DNA of 64,000 bases, from assembly GCA_011525695.1 (NCBI GenBank), contig WYBX01000046.1, forward strand, positions 1-64,000, read 5' to 3'. Numbering within the stretch: position 1 is the stretch's first letter; each line of letters begins with the position of its first letter. The notes under the pieces are model-generated. The model ran no database searches. It saw only the letters and a program-made list of their open reading frames with translations, and had not been told where the DNA came from. This document shows, in pieces, positions 3,662 through 15,679 of the stretch. The position numbers and the translations under genes were made by a program. Source of the stretch: Verrucomicrobiia bacterium. Its GTDB lineage: Bacteria > Verrucomicrobiota > Verrucomicrobiia > Opitutales > Opitutaceae.

Positions 3662-4660
3662 ATGATCGAAGTCGACCACCTCACGCGCGTCTTCCGCACG
3701 TACAAGAAGCAGCCCGGCTTCTGGGGCGGCGTGACCGGCCTGTTCCGGAGGGAATTCGAGGAAACGGCGGCGGCACAGGACGTCTCCTTCCGCATCTCCG
3801 AAGGCGAGTTCGTGGGATTCCTGGGCCCAAACGGGGCCGGAAAGACGACCACGCTCAAGATGCTTTCCGGGCTCATCTATCCGACCAGCGGCACGGCCCG
3901 GGTGGCGGGTTTCGATCCGACGCGGCGGGAAAACGCCTACCGGCGGATCTTCGCGCTCGTGCTCGGCCAGAAGAACCAGCTCTGGTGGGACCTGCCGGCG
4001 AGCGAATCCTTCAACCTGCTCCGCGCAATCTACGGCATCCCGGCGGAGCAGTTCAAATCCACCCTCGCCGAGCTCGTGACGCTGCTGGACGTCGAGCGGA
4101 AGCTCAATGTCATGGTGCGCGAACTTTCGCTGGGGGAGCGGATGAAGATGGAGCTGATTGCGGCGCTGCTGCACCGGCCGCGCGTCCTGTTCCTCGATGA
4201 ACCCACGATCGGGCTCGACGTGGTGTCCCAGCGGGCCGTCCGCCAGTTCCTGCGGGACTACAACCGGCGGCACCGGGTCACGATCCTGCTGACGAGCCAC
4301 TATATGGCGGACATCAAGGAGCTTTGCGAGCGCGTGATCGTGATCCACAAGGGCCGGAAGATCTACGACGGCGCGCTGGACCGGCTCGAAAGCTCCGGGG
4401 GAGCCCGGAAGAAGATCATCACGTTCATCCCGGCTGCCGAAGGCACGGACGGCACCCCCGGCGGCTTCTCCGAGACTTGGCAGTCGCGCTATGCCCCCAC
4501 CACGCGGTCGGCCGATGGAAAGTTCACCCTCAGGATTCCCGGGGAGAATGTGGTGGCGGTGTCGCAGGAAATCCTCAGCACGGGTCCGGTGGCCGACATC
4601 ACCATCGAGGACGTGCCGCTGGAGGATGTGATCGCCGAGCTCTTCAGCGCCCAGGCTTGA
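3662..4660 (+). CDS. ABC transporter ATP-binding protein, COG4586-like
   Basis: A 332-residue ATPase. Walker A is GPNGAGKTTT near residue 59, the Q-loop region reads VLGQKNQLWWDLPA, the signature is LSLGERMK and Walker B is VLFLDEPTIGLD. The long insertion before the core (KKQPGFWGGVTGLF) and the QLWWD Q-loop are typical of the COG4586 group, which normally sits beside two six-helix permeases of the ABC-2 exporter class. No permease gene is adjacent here, so the ATPase is an orphan or its partners lie elsewhere. The start at MIEVDHLTR was chosen over an upstream frame that reads through the palindrome at 3531. Its last 17 bases overlap the convergent nucleotidyltransferase gene. Confidence 0.88.
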   Translation: MIEVDHLTRVFRTYKKQPGFWGGVTGLFRREFEETAAAQDVSFRISEGEFVGFLGPNGAGKTTTLKMLSGLIYPTSGTARVAGFDPTRRENAYRRIFALVLGQKNQLWWDLPASESFNLLRAIYGIPAEQFKSTLAELVTLLDVERKLNVMVRELSLGERMKMELIAALLHRPRVLFLDEPTIGLDVVSQRAVRQFLRDYNRRHRVTILLTSHYMADIKELCERVIVIHKGRKIYDGALDRLESSGGARKKIITFIPAAEGTDGTPGGFSETWQSRYAPTTRSADGKFTLRIPGENVVAVSQEILSTGPVADITIEDVPLEDVIAELFSAQA

Positions 4661-5543
4661 GCGGCCAGCGGAAGCGGGAGGCCACGACATCCTCAATCAT
4701 CGGAGGTACGTGCCAGGCCGGAACTAATTCCCTCATGATTGTCTTCAAACCGTTGTAACACTGAGTGGCAGCGTTCTGAAGTCCATCCGGCGTCAGCGTT
4801 GCGCTGATTGAAACGCTCTTCTTGTCTATTGGCGACTCAAGTTGTTCCAGACGCCGCCCGAGTCCAAAGGATGGAACAGGCAATCTACGCCTAAGCCGAA
4901 ACTCACGCCATAATCGAAGATTGGTATCAATAAGCTTCAGGTGAATCGCGTGCTGGGCTGTGACAAGTTCGCCTCGGTCCAGTTTTTGGATTACCCACAT
5001 TAATTCACACAATGCAACGTCAGCCATGGAAGTTAGCTGATCATCGCTAAGTCGAATCCCCGATAAACCGGCGACCCGAGCATAGATATGGCCCCATCGC
5101 TCCTTTCCCTTCAAAAATCTGTAGCCTGTGTGCAGACAGGTTGCCATTTCATTGAGCGCAACATCGATAAACCGGAATTTCCTGTTCAACCCATATTTCA
5201 AAGCCGTGACACCCAACCGCAGTGCCATGGAGGAAACGATTACCATATCGATCTGGCCCGCTGAAAATACGGCAGTCACCTTTCTAGTACCCCCTGTTGC
5301 AGCGCGTGCGACCTGGAAACAAAACGAGCAGTCCGGCACCGCTCTTGGCCAGTCAATATCTTCAAGCTCATTCGGCTGATTACTTACGACATGTAAATCA
5401 ATATCCGACCAATGATCCGCGGGAGCCAGTTCTGAATGGCTGCGAGCCGATGATCCAAACAGCACGGCCGACTTGATGGTTTGGCATTCGAGAAGCCACC
5501 GATTGACGGCTCGAAATAAACTTCCCCATCCTTCAGTCATCAC
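4644..5543 (-). CDS. Nucleotidyltransferase-like protein, possibly acquired
   Basis: A 299-residue protein. The polymerase-beta-type nucleotidyltransferase core is near residues 25-52: FGSSARSHSELAP, then DHWSDIDLHV, giving the GS and DxD elements. A later QIDMVIV could provide the third acidic residue. The layout resembles the streptomycin/aminoglycoside 6-adenylyltransferase group, but the long helical C-terminal half is not diagnostic. The gene is visibly AT-richer and uses more A/T-ending codons than its neighbours, and its 3' end overruns the ABC gene by 17 bases. It starts 45 bases after the degenerate kinase gene on the same strand and could be the last gene of that run. Substrate unknown. 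Confidence 0.7.
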   Translation of the reverse strand: MMTEGWGSLFRAVNRWLLECQTIKSAVLFGSSARSHSELAPADHWSDIDLHVVSNQPNELEDIDWPRAVPDCSFCFQVARAATGGTRKVTAVFSAGQIDMVIVSSMALRLGVTALKYGLNRKFRFIDVALNEMATCLHTGYRFLKGKERWGHIYARVAGLSGIRLSDDQLTSMADVALCELMWVIQKLDRGELVTAQHAIHLKLIDTNLRLWREFRLRRRLPVPSFGLGRRLEQLESPIDKKSVSISATLTPDGLQNAATQCYNGLKTIMRELVPAWHVPPMIEDVVASRFRWPLKPGR

Positions 5544-5588: not shown

Positions 5589-7367
5589 TCACAGCTTGCG
5601 CACGGAGATGAGAATCTCGGTCCCTTCCATCCCGGGCCCGGCGTGAATCTCGCCCTGATGGAGTCGGAGGATCTCCTTGGCCAGGAACACACCGAGCCGG
5701 CCCTGGTTCGGCACCGCACCGTCCTTCGGCTCGGGCAGGATTCCCTCCAATTCGAGGTGCCTGCCCTTGAGCGACAGCAACGCAGTGAGTTCGCGGCCGA
5801 TTCCCGTCGATCGCACCTTCAGCGCCAGCTCCCGCAGGCCGTGCTCGGGCCGGTTTTCACCCACCGTGCGGATCAGCGCCCGGAGCGCAAAATCCAGCAG
5901 CTTCCGGTTCGCCAGCAACACCACGGGATCGGGTCCGATTTCCACCCGGAGTCCCAACGAGTGTCCCAGCGCCTGCGCCACCTCCCGGAGGTCTGTCGGT
6001 GCCGGTTCCGCCTCATGCAGCCCCTCCATCAGCGCGAGGTTCTGGTTCAGTTCCTCGAGCTGTGCGACGTCGCCCTTCATCGTTTCCAGCAGGGCTGCCG
6101 GCATCGGCCGATCTGCACCCGACTGCCTGAACGTGGCCAGCGAGACCAGCGCGTTGCCCAACTCGTGGCTGAGCGTGAGCGCCAGTTCGCGAAGCACATC
6201 GCGGCGGCGCGCACGCTCGCGCAACTCCGCATCGTGCACCTCCCCGCTCGCCTCCTCCCAAAATGCCCATACTCCACCGGACTCGGCAATGATGCCGGCA
6301 CTCGCCCGGAAGGGCTGGCCAGCAGTCGGCGCCACCCGGACAACCTCACGGGAACGCCGGGCCTGACCGATCGCATCCCGCACCACGAGGGGCACATGCC
6401 GCGGCGCGTTTTCATCCGGACCCAGCACCAGCGTGCCCGGCAGGTACTTCGCTCCAAGGGTAGCCTGATCGGAAAGATGGCTGAGCCGGTGGAACTGAAC
6501 GGACTTCGCCAGCAGATGCCGCAGCAATCGCGCCAGGTAGACGGCCCTCGCCCGATCCGCCTCATCGTAGGACTGGCCGTCATCGCGAACACCGAGAGCA
6601 ATGAGCCCGAGCAACCGCCCGTTGTCGTGCACTGGCACCAGCAATCGCGCGCCCCACAGCGCAAGCCGGTTGCGCACGGCGAGCTCGGCTACCGGATCAG
6701 CCGGGCCGTCCCAGTTCGAGCCATCGATGACCGCGGGATGGGATTCGAAAAATGCAATCAACGGGTCGTCGGCCGCAAAAAACGAGGTGCCCCGATCCGC
6801 CCGGAATCCATCCGGCTCCCGAAGGAAAAAGACGGCATGGGAGGCACGCAACAGCTGCCGCGACGCGCGGCGGAACTCGGCAATCAGCCGATCCCGTGAG
6901 TCGATATTCTCCACTGCCCCTTCCAGGAAATCCCAAAGTTCCGCGGAATCGGCAGCCGTAACCCGCGCCGCCGGGCGGGGCGCCTCGATCCGCCGGTTCT
7001 TCTCCGCCAGCATTTCCACGATCGACTGCTTTTCCGCCACTTCCTCGACCAACGGAAAAATCTCCCGCAATCGCGTCATGCTTTCATCATAAGAGAGGTA
7101 GACCTTCGCCCGGCCGGCCATCCGCGCCTGCTCGAACGGCAGGCTGCGTGGTTCCCCGACGAAGATCGTGGGGCAGCGGGCAAGCGAAGCAGGCAGACCC
7201 GCCTCGGAAACGGCATCGAGTACGACCAGTGCGGCAAATCCCGGGGCCGTGCCGATCGGGAAGGCCTGTGCCCCAAGCCGGAGTGCCATCCGGCCGGCTG
7301 GCAGCTGGCGCTCCCAAGCGTCCGCCAGAGCGGCGTCGGGGGTCGCTAGGATGACGAGGGTTGGCAT
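5589..7367 (-). CDS. GAF-containing histidine kinase with degenerate ATPase domain
   Basis: A 592-residue soluble protein. Residues 1-120 look like a divergent receiver (LVVLDAVSEAGLP, KVYLSYDESM). A coiled linker and a GAF-like domain around residues 170-290 follow. The phospho-acceptor helix is LTLSHELGNALVSL. In the C-terminal catalytic domain the N-box is poor (DFALRALIRTVGEN), no DxGxG element is present, and only a weak G2-like LGVFLAKEI remains, so ATP binding is doubtful. The start at MPTLVILATPD was chosen because upstream residues lie inside the preceding kinase gene. It overlaps that gene by 22 bases, implying coupled translation. It may act as a phosphotransfer or scaffold partner of the intact upstream kinase. 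Confidence 0.82.
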   Translation of the reverse strand: MPTLVILATPDAALADAWERQLPAGRMALRLGAQAFPIGTAPGFAALVVLDAVSEAGLPASLARCPTIFVGEPRSLPFEQARMAGRAKVYLSYDESMTRLREIFPLVEEVAEKQSIVEMLAEKNRRIEAPRPAARVTAADSAELWDFLEGAVENIDSRDRLIAEFRRASRQLLRASHAVFFLREPDGFRADRGTSFFAADDPLIAFFESHPAVIDGSNWDGPADPVAELAVRNRLALWGARLLVPVHDNGRLLGLIALGVRDDGQSYDEADRARAVYLARLLRHLLAKSVQFHRLSHLSDQATLGAKYLPGTLVLGPDENAPRHVPLVVRDAIGQARRSREVVRVAPTAGQPFRASAGIIAESGGVWAFWEEASGEVHDAELRERARRRDVLRELALTLSHELGNALVSLATFRQSGADRPMPAALLETMKGDVAQLEELNQNLALMEGLHEAEPAPTDLREVAQALGHSLGLRVEIGPDPVVLLANRKLLDFALRALIRTVGENRPEHGLRELALKVRSTGIGRELTALLSLKGRHLELEGILPEPKDGAVPNQGRLGVFLAKEILRLHQGEIHAGPGMEGTEILISVRKL

Positions 7368-9355
7368 GGAAACGTCACGCGAAACGTGGCACCGCAACCC
7401 GGTAGAGGGGGGTCGACAGTGATGCTGGCGTTCAGATTCGCTAGGATATCGCTGCAAATCGCAAGCCCGAGACCGAACCCGGTCGATTTTGTTGTTTGGA
7501 AAGGATGGAAGAGCCGCGGGCGAAGTTCCGGATCTATGCCGGGTCCGCTGTCGGCAAAGGCCATTTCCACCCCGCCGGGCGTGTTGCGGGTCGCAATCTT
7601 GACCCAGCGCTGATCGGTCGGATGCGCCTCCACCGCCTGGATGGCATTGAAACACAGGTTGAGCATCACCTGCTTTGCCGCCGAAGCGTCCGTGAAGGCA
7701 CGATCCGGGTCGGCCCGAAGCTCGGTCAGGAGCTCGACATTACGGTGGGCAGCCTTGGAGGCCACCAGTTCCAGGCTGGCATGGAGCAACGGATGCAATG
7801 CGACCATCTGGGAAGAGTAGGTCCGTGGGGAGGCCAAATCCAGCAACTGCTCGGTCAGCTGATCGATCCGCCCCACCTCATCCCCGATCAGTCGGAAGAA
7901 CTTCTCACGGAAGGCCGGATCGTGGTGATGGGTCGGAAGCAACTGGACGAAGGTTTTTATTGAGACGAGCGGATTGCGGATTTCATGTGCGAGGCTCGCT
8001 CCCAGGAGACCGACCGTGGCCAGTTGCTCGGCATGCTGGGCCTTCTCCGAGAAATGGGCGCGCTCCAGCGCACTCTCGATAATGGACGCCAGTTCGATCA
8101 GTTGCGTCACCTGCGGATAGGTAAATGGACGACGCGATGCCGGCACACCCACTCCGACGAGAATGGACAACGCCGGACCTTCGATTGTCACCAGAACACC
8201 CAGGCGCTGATCGGTCAAAAAGCGGTGCAACTCCCGACGGTCCGCGTTCGAGCGCTCCCGGATCAAGCGCTCAGGAGTCGCCCATTGTAGCTGTTGGATC
8301 GCGCTCATGACCGTGCCGTCTTCTGGCACAACAATTCCGCTACCACTTAACGCTCCATTCGTGCCGGACACGACAATCGCATGATCAGCCTGCCCCCACC
8401 CCATGAGCACGGCTCGGAATGCGGTTTCGAGATTTTCAACGCGACTCTCACATTGCGCAGCCGTGAATGCCGCCTGCCTCGCCGCCGTGGCCTGGGGATA
8501 AAAATGAAAGAAACGATTAAGCCATGAGTTGAGAACTGAAGCCCACCATAGGGCAAACCCGGTTGTCACAACCAGTGAGAGCGCGGTCGGAAGCACTGTC
8601 GCCAGCAACTGTTGGGTAGTGATCGCGACCAGAGCCACGACAATCACAAGACACAACTTCTGGAATCCGAGCAGCAGGATCTGGCGGGCGTCAAAAATCC
8701 GATGGGTAGTAATCGCCACCGCGGTACCAATATAAAAAACCAGGATCATCACGGGCTGCAGCCTTATATACCGTGAATCCCCGGTCACAACGCGCAAAGC
8801 CATGAGTGCCATGACTCCCACTGCCACGCTGCATCCGCCCAGCAGCCAAACTTGAAGTTCAGTCTTGCGCGCTCCTTCCAAGCGACGAATTGTTCTCAGT
8901 GCGTCAGCGATAAGAAACAAATACAACAGAAGGCCCACCGCTATGTATGCGGTGTAACCCCATCCACGCACTCGCTGCTCATCGGTCGAATGGGAAGGAA
9001 TGAAATACTCAGTGAAAGGCACGAGCATCATCGCCATCGAAACTACGACCCACACAACAAAGTGGGGGCTCCAAATCCTCCGGTTCACCTGACCTGCCAC
9101 AATGCTCTCCTTAACTAGCCAAAAATGGAAGGGTATCGACCCACCTACAGAACAGGCCATCTTAAGCCACCACAGGCCTTCACTCGATCCTTGGGGAGCA
9201 GATGTCGCAAAATAAGAGCAGCCGAGCCATAAGGCAATGTGGATCGAGCATGAACAAACGATCCTATTAACGCTCCGGCTTGAGTTAGACCATAGTATTA
9301 TTCCGCCCGCAATGAGGACGGCAACTGATGCTATGAGTGCCGGTGAAATCAACAT
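7346..9355 (-). CDS. Membrane sensor histidine kinase with 7TM-like input and GAF domain
   Basis: A 669-residue integral-membrane kinase. The first ~290 residues hold seven to nine hydrophobic segments (for example ALIASVAVLIAGGIILW and LCLVIVVALVAI). A GAF-like region follows (ILVGVGVPASRRPFTYPQ), then a complete kinase core: H-box SLAHEIRNPLVSIKTF, N-box NLCFNAIQAV, G1 FADSGPGID, G2 TGFGLGLAIC. The start overlaps the end of the ketosynthase-like gene by 7 bases and the end overlaps the degenerate kinase by 22. The membrane half is AT-richer than the kinase half. It shares layout and short motifs (IPS.ST...DEQ, SWATPE-type) with the kinase at 13586-15679. The ligand is unknown; the adjacent ketosynthase suggests a lipid-derived one, as a hypothesis. 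Confidence 0.88.
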   Translation of the reverse strand: MLISPALIASVAVLIAGGIILWSNSSRSVNRIVCSCSIHIALWLGCSYFATSAPQGSSEGLWWLKMACSVGGSIPFHFWLVKESIVAGQVNRRIWSPHFVVWVVVSMAMMLVPFTEYFIPSHSTDEQRVRGWGYTAYIAVGLLLYLFLIADALRTIRRLEGARKTELQVWLLGGCSVAVGVMALMALRVVTGDSRYIRLQPVMILVFYIGTAVAITTHRIFDARQILLLGFQKLCLVIVVALVAITTQQLLATVLPTALSLVVTTGFALWWASVLNSWLNRFFHFYPQATAARQAAFTAAQCESRVENLETAFRAVLMGWGQADHAIVVSGTNGALSGSGIVVPEDGTVMSAIQQLQWATPERLIRERSNADRRELHRFLTDQRLGVLVTIEGPALSILVGVGVPASRRPFTYPQVTQLIELASIIESALERAHFSEKAQHAEQLATVGLLGASLAHEIRNPLVSIKTFVQLLPTHHHDPAFREKFFRLIGDEVGRIDQLTEQLLDLASPRTYSSQMVALHPLLHASLELVASKAAHRNVELLTELRADPDRAFTDASAAKQVMLNLCFNAIQAVEAHPTDQRWVKIATRNTPGGVEMAFADSGPGIDPELRPRLFHPFQTTKSTGFGLGLAICSDILANLNASITVDPPLPGCGATFRVTFPCQPSSS

Positions 9356-10557
9356 CGCTGCAAGACCATACAGCTATTCACGTTGCCCACTCCGTGGGCG
9401 TTAATTAACGTTGCGAGTTGATCGATATTCCGCACATGACGGCTGAGGTTCAAGGGGCAGGCGGGATCCGGATGGCTCCAATTCACAGTCCCTGGCCCCA
9501 TTTGGAAGTACTGACTAAGGGCTGCAACGCCTATCTGGATTGCTGGCGCGGCGCCCAGTGCACTGCCTATTGCCCCTTTGATCGAAACAGCTGATATTTC
9601 CTGGAGAGTCTTCCCGAAAACCCGCTCCATTGCATTCGCTTCGCCAGCATCGATTGTCCGATGCCCCGGACCCCAAGCATTGATGGAGTCGATCATATCA
9701 GGCTTTATACCTGCATCCGCCATGGCCAGTTGTGCGGCCTCAATAAGCCCACTGCAGATTCCAGCTGCCGAGTCATTGGCGAATGCATAACCCGATATGA
9801 AGCTGTACCCGCGCCGAGGGCTGCACTCTGGTTCCAGCACAAACATGCATGCACCCTCGCTCACAACCCCTGTGGATCGCCACATATCAAAAGGGCGCGC
9901 CAATCGGTCCGACATTTCCACTGTTGGCGGCGTCAAGCCAGCTGCTCTGAGCTCAAGAAGCGGGCATCGGTGCAGCGGGGCCTCAGTGCCGCCACAGATC
10001 GCCATCTCCGCTTCTCCACGGGCAATCATGCCGGCAGCGAAGCCCACGGCATCCAGTCCAGAGCAGCAGGAATTTTGCAGGGTCATTGTCCTCGACGAGA
10101 CGCCGATCACCTGACTAATCGTTTCAGTGACGTTGGCATTGGTAGTCGTGAATATCGTCCGAGGAAGGGCAGCACTTGGTCCCTTCGTAAATACCGCCTG
10201 CGTGGAGTTAGAGATTCCTCCAAAATCCATAAGCGATGAGCCGGACACGATAACGGTGTCTGAAGCCCGCACATTTGCCACGTCAAGTCCTGCATCCAGC
10301 AAGGCCAAAAGGGAACCGACAGCTGCGAATTGCGTGTGCCGTCCAATGCCCTTTGGCAGCCTTTCGCGCGGGATGAATTTTGAAATGTTGAAGCGATCAA
10401 CTGCGGCAGCAACAAGAGGTCCATACTCTGGACCCAGCTTGGAAAATGGCTTGATGTAACTCATGCCCCCGAGAATACCCGCCCAAAACTCGTCGCGTCC
10501 GATTCCCGCCGGAGTAACCGGGCCCACTCCGGTAATCTTAACGCGTCGCCGCTTCAT
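9349..10557 (-). CDS. Beta-ketoacyl-synthase-like protein lacking both usual catalytic His
   Basis: A 402-residue thiolase-fold condensing enzyme. The N-terminus VKITGVGPVTPAGIG and the nucleophile region NSCCSGLDAV (Cys164) are typical of KAS I/II. The two partner histidines are not in their normal places: NAHGT is NAWGPGH (Trp295, with a His four residues later) and K..xGH is IKGAIGSALGAAPA (Lys327 kept, Ser332 in place of His). Normal decarboxylating Claisen chemistry is therefore doubtful. There is no acyl carrier, ketoreductase or acyltransferase gene nearby. It overlaps the receiver-kinase gene upstream by 4 bases and the sensor kinase downstream by 7, so it is translated within a signalling operon. 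Composition is intermediate between the GC-rich and AT-richer neighbours. It may make or bind an acyl signal; this is inference. Confidence 0.85.
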   Translation of the reverse strand: MKRRRVKITGVGPVTPAGIGRDEFWAGILGGMSYIKPFSKLGPEYGPLVAAAVDRFNISKFIPRERLPKGIGRHTQFAAVGSLLALLDAGLDVANVRASDTVIVSGSSLMDFGGISNSTQAVFTKGPSAALPRTIFTTTNANVTETISQVIGVSSRTMTLQNSCCSGLDAVGFAAGMIARGEAEMAICGGTEAPLHRCPLLELRAAGLTPPTVEMSDRLARPFDMWRSTGVVSEGACMFVLEPECSPRRGYSFISGYAFANDSAAGICSGLIEAAQLAMADAGIKPDMIDSINAWGPGHRTIDAGEANAMERVFGKTLQEISAVSIKGAIGSALGAAPAIQIGVAALSQYFQMGPGTVNWSHPDPACPLNLSRHVRNIDQLATLINAHGVGNVNSCMVLQRC

Positions 10558-11663
10558 CCCTGCGGTTGCGCGGGGAAGGCGAGCCGCACGGTCGTTCCCC
10601 TCCCGGGCGCAGATTCGAGCGCAAAGGTCGCCCCGTGCGTGCCCGCCAGATGCCGGCAGATGCTCAGCCCCAGCCCCGTGCCGCTGGTCTTGCTGCTGAA
10701 TCCGCCATGCATGGCGCGCTTGACTGACTCGGCATCCATGCCGGCACCGTTGTCCGCGACCGTGACGTCGATCTGCGTCCCGGAGCGCACCAGCGTGACC
10801 GTCAGCCGGGTCGCTCCGGCTTCCAGCGAATTCTTGAACAGGTTCTGAAAGATCCGCATCAGCTCGAACCGTGACCCGCGAATCCACGCCTCCTTGTCGC
10901 CGGTGAATTGAATCGCGGCGTTGCCGAAGAAAATCACCTGCCGAACCTCACTGGCGACCTGGACCAGATCGACGCGGCCAAACTCCGTCGCCTGCTTGGA
11001 TGCCAGCCGCCAGTTTTCGGACAGGTGATGGCAATACTCGGCCGCCTTCTCCACCATGCCGGCGTATTCCAGCAGCTTCCGAGCCTGCTCCGGATCGCGA
11101 TGCCCGATCACCTGCGCCTCCTCCGCCACCAGCGCGGCGTAACCGATCACCACCGTCAACGGGTTGTTCAGGTCGTGCACCAGTTCCACCGAGGCCCGGG
11201 CCTGCCAAATCTGCGGTTCGTTCTGCTCGATCTCGCGCTTGAGCGCACGGTTCATTTCCGCCGCCTCCGCTGCCGCCTGGGCCTGGGCGCGCCTGAGCCG
11301 GGTCGCCTGGGCCTGTTTCCGCACCGCCTCGATCAGTTCCGGGATGTCCGGCGGCTTGCGCATGTACTGGTTGGCCCCGGCCACCATCGCCTGCTGTGCG
11401 GTCAGCAGCGTGCCGTAGCCCGTCAGCATGATGACAGCCACGTGCGGATCGATCTTGCGCAGTTCCTCCAAGGCCCGGATCCCGTCCATCTCCGGCATCC
11501 GGATGTCGAGCACGACGACGGCGTACGACTTGGCCCGCAGCTTTAGCAGCGCCTCCTTCGCCCGTTCCGCCGTTTCCACTGCAAACTCCCCTGCCAGGCT
11601 GAAGGCAATCGATTCGCGCGGACCATACTCATCATCAACCACGAGCACGGGCGATTTTTCCAT
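10554..11663 (-). CDS. Hybrid receiver-histidine kinase
   Basis: A 369-residue soluble protein. An N-terminal REC domain (VVDDEYGPRE, phospho-acceptor in VVVLDIRMPEMDG, Lys in MRKPPD) is followed by a helical linker rich in Ala and Gln and then a kinase core: H-box ELVHDLNNPLTVV, N-box NLFKNSLEAG, G1 VADNGAGMD, G2 GTGLGLSICRHLA. The start at MEKSPVLVVDDE places REC at the N-terminus; in-frame starts at 11705 and 11756 are possible and none has a clear ribosome-binding site. It heads the minus-strand run and overlaps the ketosynthase-like gene by an ATGA. Its receiver may accept phosphate from the membrane kinase, an untested idea. Confidence 0.88.
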   Translation of the reverse strand: MEKSPVLVVDDEYGPRESIAFSLAGEFAVETAERAKEALLKLRAKSYAVVVLDIRMPEMDGIRALEELRKIDPHVAVIMLTGYGTLLTAQQAMVAGANQYMRKPPDIPELIEAVRKQAQATRLRRAQAQAAAEAAEMNRALKREIEQNEPQIWQARASVELVHDLNNPLTVVIGYAALVAEEAQVIGHRDPEQARKLLEYAGMVEKAAEYCHHLSENWRLASKQATEFGRVDLVQVASEVRQVIFFGNAAIQFTGDKEAWIRGSRFELMRIFQNLFKNSLEAGATRLTVTLVRSGTQIDVTVADNGAGMDAESVKRAMHGGFSSKTSGTGLGLSICRHLAGTHGATFALESAPGRGTTVRLAFPAQPQG

Positions 11664-11840
11664 CGGCGTGGACCCGGCCGAAGCCGGAAGATTCTCGATC
11701 AGCATCGGTTTGGCGGCGTTGAAGCTGCGCACGAAGGATTGGCGTCCTCCGCGCATACCGCTGTGTGCCGGTGACGATCTCGGCTGTCAAGGCGCGCATC
11801 CGGGGTTGCTTCACGGCGCTCCGCCGCCGACCTTCTTCAC

Positions 11841-13585: not shown

Positions 13586-15679
13586 ATGAGCCTCGCAGTT
13601 CTCATTCTTGCATTCTTTGTCGCCACTGTCGGTGTCGCCGTCTTCCGAGCAAATCCTGCGCGTTTTACGAATCAAATATTCACTCTTATTGCAGCCGTAG
13701 CAACTCTCAGATTGTTATTCATTTTTATGGCAATGGAGGCGGGGTTTCGCTTCACCGCCGATCATAGCACCAGTCCTGTCCCTTGGATAAGGGCCAATGC
13801 GGCAGTAACCGCCTTTGTACCCTGGTTAATCTGGCTACTCAAGGAGTCCATAGAAAAAAGCTCTTCCCAACGTCCGCTAATACTCAGGACCTCTCTAGGT
13901 TGGTTCGCATTTGGATTGATATTATCGATCGTTAGCTGCACAGATGCTTACATCCCATCCGACTCGACTCCAATTGACGAACAGCATGGGCCCATGTATA
14001 GGTGGGTCACATTCCTGATGGTCCCCGCCTACTTGTATCTTGGTATAGATACATGGCTTTCAATGCGCCGAACGAAGGGAATAAAGCGCATTGAGATGCA
14101 ATTCCTTTCCCTTAACATAATAATAGCAGCGGTACTTACGATCTCCATAATGGCACTAGGTCATTTTTTAGGACTCCAAATATTGAGACGGTTCAACCTC
14201 CTAGCCACAGTAGGTGCATTTGTAATCACGGCGTGGGCATTAACATTTCATCGTGTCTTTGATTTGCGACAGGTCCTTATTCCGATCGCGAGACATGCAA
14301 TAATAATCATATTATTATATGCATTCACCTTATTTCTACTGCACTCCATTTCAGATATCATAAAGTCGTCTTTAGCATTAGCTTTCAGCATCTCTATTGC
14401 CGGCCCGTTGGTGTTGTTTATCGAGCATAAATCCAGGAATGCTTTCGACATTCAGGGAAAGAGTAGAGTACAACGTATTAGAACTTCGGTTCTTGAAATA
14501 TCGCGAAAGGAGGCGTCACATGATAGGCTCGCGATGAAATTTGAAGCCCTGCTATGTAGGGCTTATAGCTGCTCTGCAGCGTCGCTACTCCTCGATGAGA
14601 AAGATAAGCATCGTTCACGAACTCTAATCCTGACAGGCGACGATCCGGTAGTGAAGGCAATCGCCGCGTTATCTTGGGCGACACCTGAGAGCGTTGAGCG
14701 GGGACAGAAGCACCCCCAGGCGCGCTGCCTTCGTGCGTTCTTAACATCGCACGACTTAGCAGCCATTGTGGCCGTGCCTCGCGATAGCGAAAGACCATCA
14801 CTCTTGATTTGCATGGGACAGAAGTCGAGTGGGCAGCCGTTCACGTTTCCGGATGTCGAGTGCATCTTAAACGTCGCCGAGTTGATGGATAACATCCTCA
14901 CCCACGCCCGGCTTTCCGCCCAGGCTGCACTGCAGGAAAAGGTCGAATTCCTCGCCATCATGTCACGGGCGCTGGCCCATGATCTCAGGAATCTGATCAC
15001 CCCTGTCTCCTCCTTCCTCGTGCATACCGATGGACGCTACCCCGCCGGAAGTGATGAGGCTGAAGTGCACGCAGCCGCCCAACGCTCGTTGCAGCTCATG
15101 AACGATTACCTCCGCGAGACGCTTCTCTTCGCCGGGCAGACCGAGCTCGCGCTCACCACCAGAGAGCTGTCCGCAATCCTCAAACCCTTGCATGACGTCT
15201 CCGCCGACCGCGCGGCCACCCGTGGCGTGAGCGTCGTGATCCGCTGCGAGTCAGGCGCGATCACGGCGGATGTCGTCCTGTTGCAGCGGCTCCTCGCCAA
15301 CCTTGTCGGTAACGCGATCGACGCTTCCCGTTCCGGCCAAGCCGTCGTATTGTCGGCCGCCCCGCTCTGCCCCGGCTGGGTGAGATTCGAGGTCAGCGAT
15401 CAAGGCTGCGGCATCCCACCCGACCAGCTCGGTCGAATCTTCGAGCCGTACTTTACGACAAAGCAGCACCGCAAGGATGTCCGGGGCTTCGGGCTCGGGC
15501 TCACCATTTGCCAGAAGATTGTCGCGCTTCACCACGGCAAGCTTGCGGTCGACAGCCGGCTCGGAATTGGCACCACCATGACCGTCGACTTGCCCGCGGA
15601 CCAACCGGCGCCGGTTGCCGTCACCTCCACCATGGCTCATTGCTCTGGGCGCGTAAGTTTGTGGCACCCATGGGCGTGA
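13586..15679 (+). CDS. Membrane sensor histidine kinase, compositionally mosaic
   Basis: A 697-residue kinase. Residues 1-290 carry about eight hydrophobic segments, residues ~310-440 a GAF-like region, and the C-terminal part a complete core: H-box ALAHDLRNLITPV, N-box NLVGNAIDAS, G1 VSDQGCGIP, F-box FEPYFTTK, G2 RGFGLGLTIC. The membrane half is strikingly AT-rich (frequent ATA and AGA codons) up to about 14850, whereas the kinase half has the GC-rich codon use of the region, so a foreign sensor may have been joined to a resident kinase. It is paralogous in layout to the gene at 7346-9355. The last ~15 residues (HCSGRVSLWHPWA) do not look like a kinase terminus and coincide with the start of the DUF4338 remnant, so the original end may have been replaced. 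Confidence 0.87.
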   Translation: MSLAVLILAFFVATVGVAVFRANPARFTNQIFTLIAAVATLRLLFIFMAMEAGFRFTADHSTSPVPWIRANAAVTAFVPWLIWLLKESIEKSSSQRPLILRTSLGWFAFGLILSIVSCTDAYIPSDSTPIDEQHGPMYRWVTFLMVPAYLYLGIDTWLSMRRTKGIKRIEMQFLSLNIIIAAVLTISIMALGHFLGLQILRRFNLLATVGAFVITAWALTFHRVFDLRQVLIPIARHAIIIILLYAFTLFLLHSISDIIKSSLALAFSISIAGPLVLFIEHKSRNAFDIQGKSRVQRIRTSVLEISRKEASHDRLAMKFEALLCRAYSCSAASLLLDEKDKHRSRTLILTGDDPVVKAIAALSWATPESVERGQKHPQARCLRAFLTSHDLAAIVAVPRDSERPSLLICMGQKSSGQPFTFPDVECILNVAELMDNILTHARLSAQAALQEKVEFLAIMSRALAHDLRNLITPVSSFLVHTDGRYPAGSDEAEVHAAAQRSLQLMNDYLRETLLFAGQTELALTTRELSAILKPLHDVSADRAATRGVSVVIRCESGAITADVVLLQRLLANLVGNAIDASRSGQAVVLSAAPLCPGWVRFEVSDQGCGIPPDQLGRIFEPYFTTKQHRKDVRGFGLGLTICQKIVALHHGKLAVDSRLGIGTTMTVDLPADQPAPVAVTSTMAHCSGRVSLWHPWA

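Follow-up and report, generated by a model that had tools for sequence, protein, structure and literature searches.

The locus analyzed here raises the question of why a ketosynthase-like (KS) gene should lie within an operon of histidine kinase genes. It occurs in a 64,000-nucleotide stretch of DNA from a bacterium of the family Opitutaceae (the window), and a preliminary description had proposed a signal-making or acyl-sensing KS hard-wired to its receptor kinase.

The operon and the altered active site of its ketosynthase

The features of the operon are, in transcription order:

10554 to 11756, minus strand: P0004, soluble receiver-histidine kinase (RR-HK) without a DNA-binding domain, the operon's first gene
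9349 to 10557, minus strand: P0001, KS-like protein of 402 residues with a FabF fold
7346 to 9355, minus strand: P0002, 7TM sensor histidine kinase (7TM-HK) matching PF16927, PF00512 and PF02518
5589 to 7367, minus strand: P0003, GAF protein with a kinase-like C terminus, matching only GAF in Pfam
4644 to 5543, minus strand: nucleotidyltransferase-like protein (NT), related to the streptomycin adenylyltransferase family PF04439, hypervariable and of low GC

The open reading frame coordinates reproduce exactly the overlaps first described: the KS gene shares 4 bases with the RR-HK gene, which ends at 10554, and 7 with the 7TM-HK gene, which starts at 9355. The claim that a fatty-acid or polyketide partner is lacking also holds, with no ACP, KR or similar gene in the operon in the window. 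Residues 1–225 of P0002 form a hypervariable sensor and residues 431–669 a conserved kinase. P0003 is 62–83% identical in most same-genus relatives, and identity falls as low as 40% in other genera. Pfam detected neither HisKA nor HATPase in it, and its counterparts in f30, another family of the same class as Opitutaceae (locus L137), and in a different class (L171) are complete kinases, so that by its sequence it is probably a conserved degenerate kinase. A relative of NT in L133 matches PF04439 itself. A second 7TM-type histidine kinase is encoded at 13586–15679 on the plus strand, divergent from the KS operon and beyond rmuC. It too is hypervariable (median identity 38%, GC down to 0.44 in the first half), and in some relatives (L042 and L050) genes for a further receiver protein, of 406 residues, and a winged-helix-like regulator come after it.

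That P0001 is a KS-like protein with Cys164 as nucleophile is borne out by Pfam (ketoacyl-synt N domain, 1.5e-24; C domain, 2e-12) and by alignment with FabF. Its predicted fold is of the FabF type (AlphaFold pLDDT 83, pTM 0.88), and the best PDB match, Bacillus subtilis FabF (4ls8, TM 0.91), places it in the thiolase-like KS fold. Against the NCBIfam fabF equivalog it scores 193 bits, below the cut-off of 493.75 bits. The residues compared with those of the FabF active site, placed by alignment, are encoded on the minus strand as follows:

10066 to 10068: Cys164, nucleophile position, in motif SCCSG (SACATG in FabF)
9673 to 9675: Trp295, replacing FabF His303, in NAWGPGH (NAHGTST in FabF)
9661 to 9663: His299, in GPGH, at the position of FabF Thr307
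9577 to 9579: Lys327, the retained counterpart of FabF Lys335
9562 to 9564: Ser332, replacing FabF His340, in IKGAIGS (TKSMTGH in FabF)
9394 to 9396: His388, in N-x-H-G, at the position of FabF Phe398

P0001 thus shares with the FabF/KAS II enzymes of Escherichia coli and B. subtilis the fold, the nucleophilic cysteine and the active-site lysine, but both histidines of the Cys-His-His triad of KAS I/II are replaced, as had been read from the sequence, and the gene lies in a kinase operon. The pair of threonines that contacts pantetheine in FabF is changed to proline and histidine, and Phe398 to histidine. These two histidines (His299 and His388) are fixed in the Opitutaceae proteins, and neither occupies a normal catalytic position; a search of the alignment for histidines in the normal positions, by which the first reading could have been overturned, found none in any Opitutaceae member. 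The same genome encodes a separate FabF (C103) with all catalytic residues, and the P0001 gene is therefore not that of the housekeeping enzyme. Purifying selection on the KS is strong (dN/dS 0.05–0.07). We rejected the possibility of a pseudogene, given a dN/dS of about 0.05 and the conserved motifs, and that of a chain-length factor (KS beta, in which the cysteine is usually glutamine), given the retained Cys164 and the lack of a partner KS in the locus.

Conservation of the ketosynthase–kinase unit

Orthologues of P0001, 44–71% identical, are found in many though not all Opitutaceae genomes and repeat both the histidine replacements and the neighbors; because these recur in about 30 Opitutaceae loci, the arrangement in the window is not a matter of chance. 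The 7TM-HK gene directly follows the KS gene in 31 of 31 Opitutaceae loci (window included), the GAF protein comes next wherever the contig permits, and RR-HK nearly always adjoins. All complete Opitutaceae loci have NT next to the KS operon, and in several deep genera (L131, L133, L135 and L136) it lies divergently between RR-HK and KS. The complete genome G030 is the only one in which the KS is genuinely missing beside the three kinase genes, and there NT is missing too; in several fragmented genomes without a KS, contigs end at the KS/sensor segment. Contig breaks within or beside this segment (G001, G002, G008, G009, G011, G016 and G021) are what would be expected if it differs among strains within one population.

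Beyond the family, the order KS, 7TM-HK, GAF/PAS histidine kinase recurs in f30 (four loci, L137–L140) and in 18 loci of other classes of the phylum (L168–L185). Conservation of gene order, on which the original proposal depended, is thus seen in several classes: 7TM-HK follows KS in all 53 loci read, the enzyme gene lying in a conserved operon with a membrane sensor kinase as expected of a synthase–receptor pair, and the GAF kinase is third in 52 of them, the contig ending in the other. In a quick tree the 43 KS proteins of this module form one clade (SH-aLRT 98), separate from FabF and other KS proteins. A search of three other phyla gave no module KS in 199, 145 and 148 genomes (492 in total), a limited test run without a positive control, at a cut-off that would miss weaker members and below which some Opitutaceae members themselves score.

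The genes around the module differ between clades. A protein with a lantibiotic-dehydratase N terminus (PF04738) is conserved about 2.4 kb beside RR-HK in the f30 loci. Differing putative tailoring genes lie upstream of the KS in L173, L176, L177, L178 and L183, and near the module also in L170 and L175; they include methyltransferases, confirmed by Pfam in L176 and L173, and, as judged by eye only, radical-SAM-like proteins and, in L177, acyltransferase-like genes. No ACP and no clear enzyme for tailoring a signal was shared by all clades among the loci read. KS-like proteins of a Planctomycetes type (L062–L064, L066 and L067) make up another non-canonical group; in the two that were aligned, L062 and L063, the nucleophilic cysteine is glutamate and the second histidine asparagine.

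Within the module clade the cysteine is kept in every KS aligned, and a complete Cys-His-His triad was present in none of those examined. The first histidine is tryptophan and the second serine, asparagine or threonine in Opitutaceae, and the respective residues in f30 are tyrosine and asparagine. Proteins of the other classes retain the first histidine (AHGP, AHAP) and have asparagine, serine or cysteine for the second, apart from L180 and L185, where the second is retained and the first lost. As several deep members keep one catalytic histidine, residual KS chemistry is possible in some. The N-x-H-G motif provides a histidine at the Phe398 position in nearly all module KS (arginine in f30), and GPGH one at the Thr307 position in Opitutaceae and f30, where it is invariant, and in part of the other classes.

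In KS enzymology both histidines are required for decarboxylative condensation, and the cysteine alone can be acylated. In PqsC, acylation of the cysteine is independent of its histidine (PMC4807248). The KS0 domains of trans-AT polyketide synthases, like P0001, keep the cysteine and have lost condensation, and they act as non-elongating transacylases (PMC8456789); unlike P0001 they are assembly-line domains, neither free-standing nor kinase-linked. It is from this enzymology and these two precedents that we infer a transacylase role for the module KS.

Mosaic divergence of sensor and ketosynthase

The Opitutaceae operon is a mosaic in which the kinase parts are constant (median pairwise identity 68% for RR-HK, 73% for the kinase part of 7TM-HK and 65% for the GAF protein) and the 7TM sensor (38%), KS (52%) and NT (36%) vary; GC is lower over these three. 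The pattern is that of the ComQXPA pherotypes, in which the kinase is conserved but carries a hypervariable N-terminal membrane sensor, and the linked genes vary as well (PMC4008528), although the ComQXPA signal is a peptide and its enzyme an isoprenyl transferase, with no KS.

With the kinases controlled for, the divergence of KS and that of the sensor correlate at a partial Mantel r of 0.57 (p 0.0002), and at 0.40 and 0.65 within two subclades. The correlation of KS with RR-HK, its other overlapping neighbor, is −0.03 over all loci, and 0.28 (p 0.03) in one subclade. Such co-divergence of KS and sensor is expected of an enzyme–receptor pair. NT was rejected as a co-evolving specificity partner, as it correlates with neither KS nor sensor, though always linked.

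Exchange of the sensor is seen between the near relatives G017 and G020, in which flanking and kinase genes are 92–97% identical (RR-HK 92%, kinase part 97%) and the sensor and NT, bounded by sharp DNA breakpoints, only 40% and 37%. The KS proteins of this pair are still 90% identical, so sensor type is not determined by the KS alone. The KS dS of 1.10, against 0.41 for RR-HK, together with a dN/dS of 0.05, indicates that the history of the KS is older than that of its flank and that the protein was held constant. Taken together, these data establish a conserved unit of a KS lacking the full triad and a 7TM kinase that evolve as a linked pair. The proposed hard wiring of a KS to its kinase is accordingly supported in part, by the conserved linkage and the co-divergence of KS and sensor, which do not by themselves differentiate the making of a signal from the sensing of an acyl group.

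A possible lipid-type signal and its alternatives

Outside Opitutaceae the loci also suggest an output. A FadL-type gene (PF03349, 1.7e-58) lies near the KS, mostly divergent from it, in 14 of the 18 loci of other classes. The fourth gene in many of these loci encodes a long response regulator, which in L171 is by Pfam an NtrC-like sigma-54 activator, and at least seven loci (L168, L170, L171, L173, L175, L178 and L183) have sigma-54 −24/−12 elements on the fadL strand, 46–81 bases before the gene. In L176 and L181 the element is in the same intergenic region and the fadL start is poorly placed. No element was found upstream of fadL in L180, L185, L172, L177 or L179; in L180 and L185 the fourth gene encodes a short response regulator (192 residues). 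A shuffle test combined over 22 upstream regions gives a p value of about 1e-6 for the elements. Rhizobial FadL reportedly imports long-chain AHLs (PMC9938287), and FadL at these loci would suit the uptake of nutrient lipids no less than that of a signal.

In our view the KS probably acts on a lipid-like signal, by producing it, handing it over or sensing it. In the reading we prefer, to which we give very nearly an even chance, a non-condensing, acyl-holding KS makes or hands over a lipid-type signal that is read by the adjoining kinase. The KS would be a re-tooled FabF-type enzyme that has retained the acyl-accepting cysteine and lost decarboxylative condensation, and it would be inherited as a unit together with the adjacently translated 7TM sensor kinase. 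Most likely, Cys164 would take an acyl group and pass it to another acceptor as a transacylase, giving a lipid-derived signal, which in Opitutaceae the linked NT may tailor. The 7TM domain would perceive this signal within the membrane, and phosphate would then pass via the GAF kinase and the receiver-kinase; in the other classes it would reach the sigma-54 activator, which probably turns on fadL, and the FadL channel would return the hydrophobic ligand into the cell. Here we infer an acyl-derived ligand, the transacylase chemistry, the identity of the signal, the direction of phosphate flow and a quorum-type use.

The main rival is a lipid-status sensor: acyl-ACP, acyl-CoA or free fatty acid would bind at or close to the cysteine of the KS, which would report by contact with the 7TM kinase, leading to uptake of lipids or hydrophobes through FadL and not to cell–cell signaling. 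The FadL genes near the KS with sigma-54 sites before them, the sigma-54 activator in the operon, the loss of condensation residues with the cysteine kept and the tight translational coupling of KS to kinase are all compatible with such a regulator. We nevertheless think it unlikely: there is no FadL match in the window and none was noticed in the Opitutaceae operons, and sensor exchange with KS–sensor co-divergence resembles ligand-specificity groups, not the sensing of a common metabolite. Exchange of the sensor between near relatives is the reason that we favor signal making over acyl sensing.

Alternatively, the KS could be an active enzyme of another kind, using His299 and His388 with Cys164 for a reaction such as hydrolysis, a non-decarboxylative condensation or the transfer of an acyl group onto an amine or alcohol, with the kinases merely regulating a metabolite pathway. 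Both histidines, invariant or nearly universal as they are, would be expected to line the active site, and the purifying selection on the KS and the methyltransferase and radical-SAM-like neighbors in some classes agree with this. The neighboring enzymes, however, vary by clade with no shared pathway, only the kinases being conserved throughout, and we regard this explanation as distinctly improbable. If the KS had degenerated and persisted solely as a scaffold on which the kinases assemble, the lost catalytic histidines would be accounted for, but conservation of the cysteine, the lysine, W/Y-GPGH and N-x-H-G at a dN/dS of about 0.05 makes this highly improbable.

No signaling route that pairs a ketosynthase with a sensor kinase in one operon is known to us in these bacteria, and a limited search of the open-access literature found no KS-kinase-FadL module or matching signaling unit. 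In CqsA/CqsS and LqsA/LqsS a signal synthase gene lies beside that of a multi-TM sensor kinase, but the synthase is a PLP-dependent acyl transferase, of a fold unrelated to KS. DarB and PpyS, to which P0001 had been likened, are FabH-type (KAS III-like), and as P0001 is FabF-type that analogy is functional at best; PqsBC is also FabH-like. To our knowledge, none of these three is an operon partner of a sensor kinase. They share with the proposed role of P0001 that they are ketosynthase-type signal makers, and PqsC is active with an incomplete triad (PMC4807248). The Ralstonia PhcBSRQ operon, which serves quorum sensing by a lipid signal, likewise encodes an enzyme together with a sensor kinase and a soluble receiver-kinase that has no DNA-binding domain (PMC8578825). 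In architecture alone P0004 corresponds to PhcR, a soluble receiver and histidine kinase lacking a DNA-binding domain; the likeness of the operons is functional, with no membership claimed, and the enzyme PhcB is a methyltransferase rather than a KS.

The module KS form a clade in which condensing residues have been lost repeatedly and the acyl-accepting cysteine preserved. More tentatively, at somewhat less than even chance, they may serve a phylum-wide form of cell–cell communication, with a signal from a non-condensing FabF-type KS co-translated with its own 7TM receptor kinase, strain-specific receptor exchange and, outside Opitutaceae, sigma-54-driven re-uptake through FadL. If so, one more enzyme class would join the known pheromone makers, an acyl-derived, FadL-permeable signal would be the chemical lead, and the exchanged sensors would provide a natural receptor-swap set for mapping the ligand specificity of 7TM histidine kinases.
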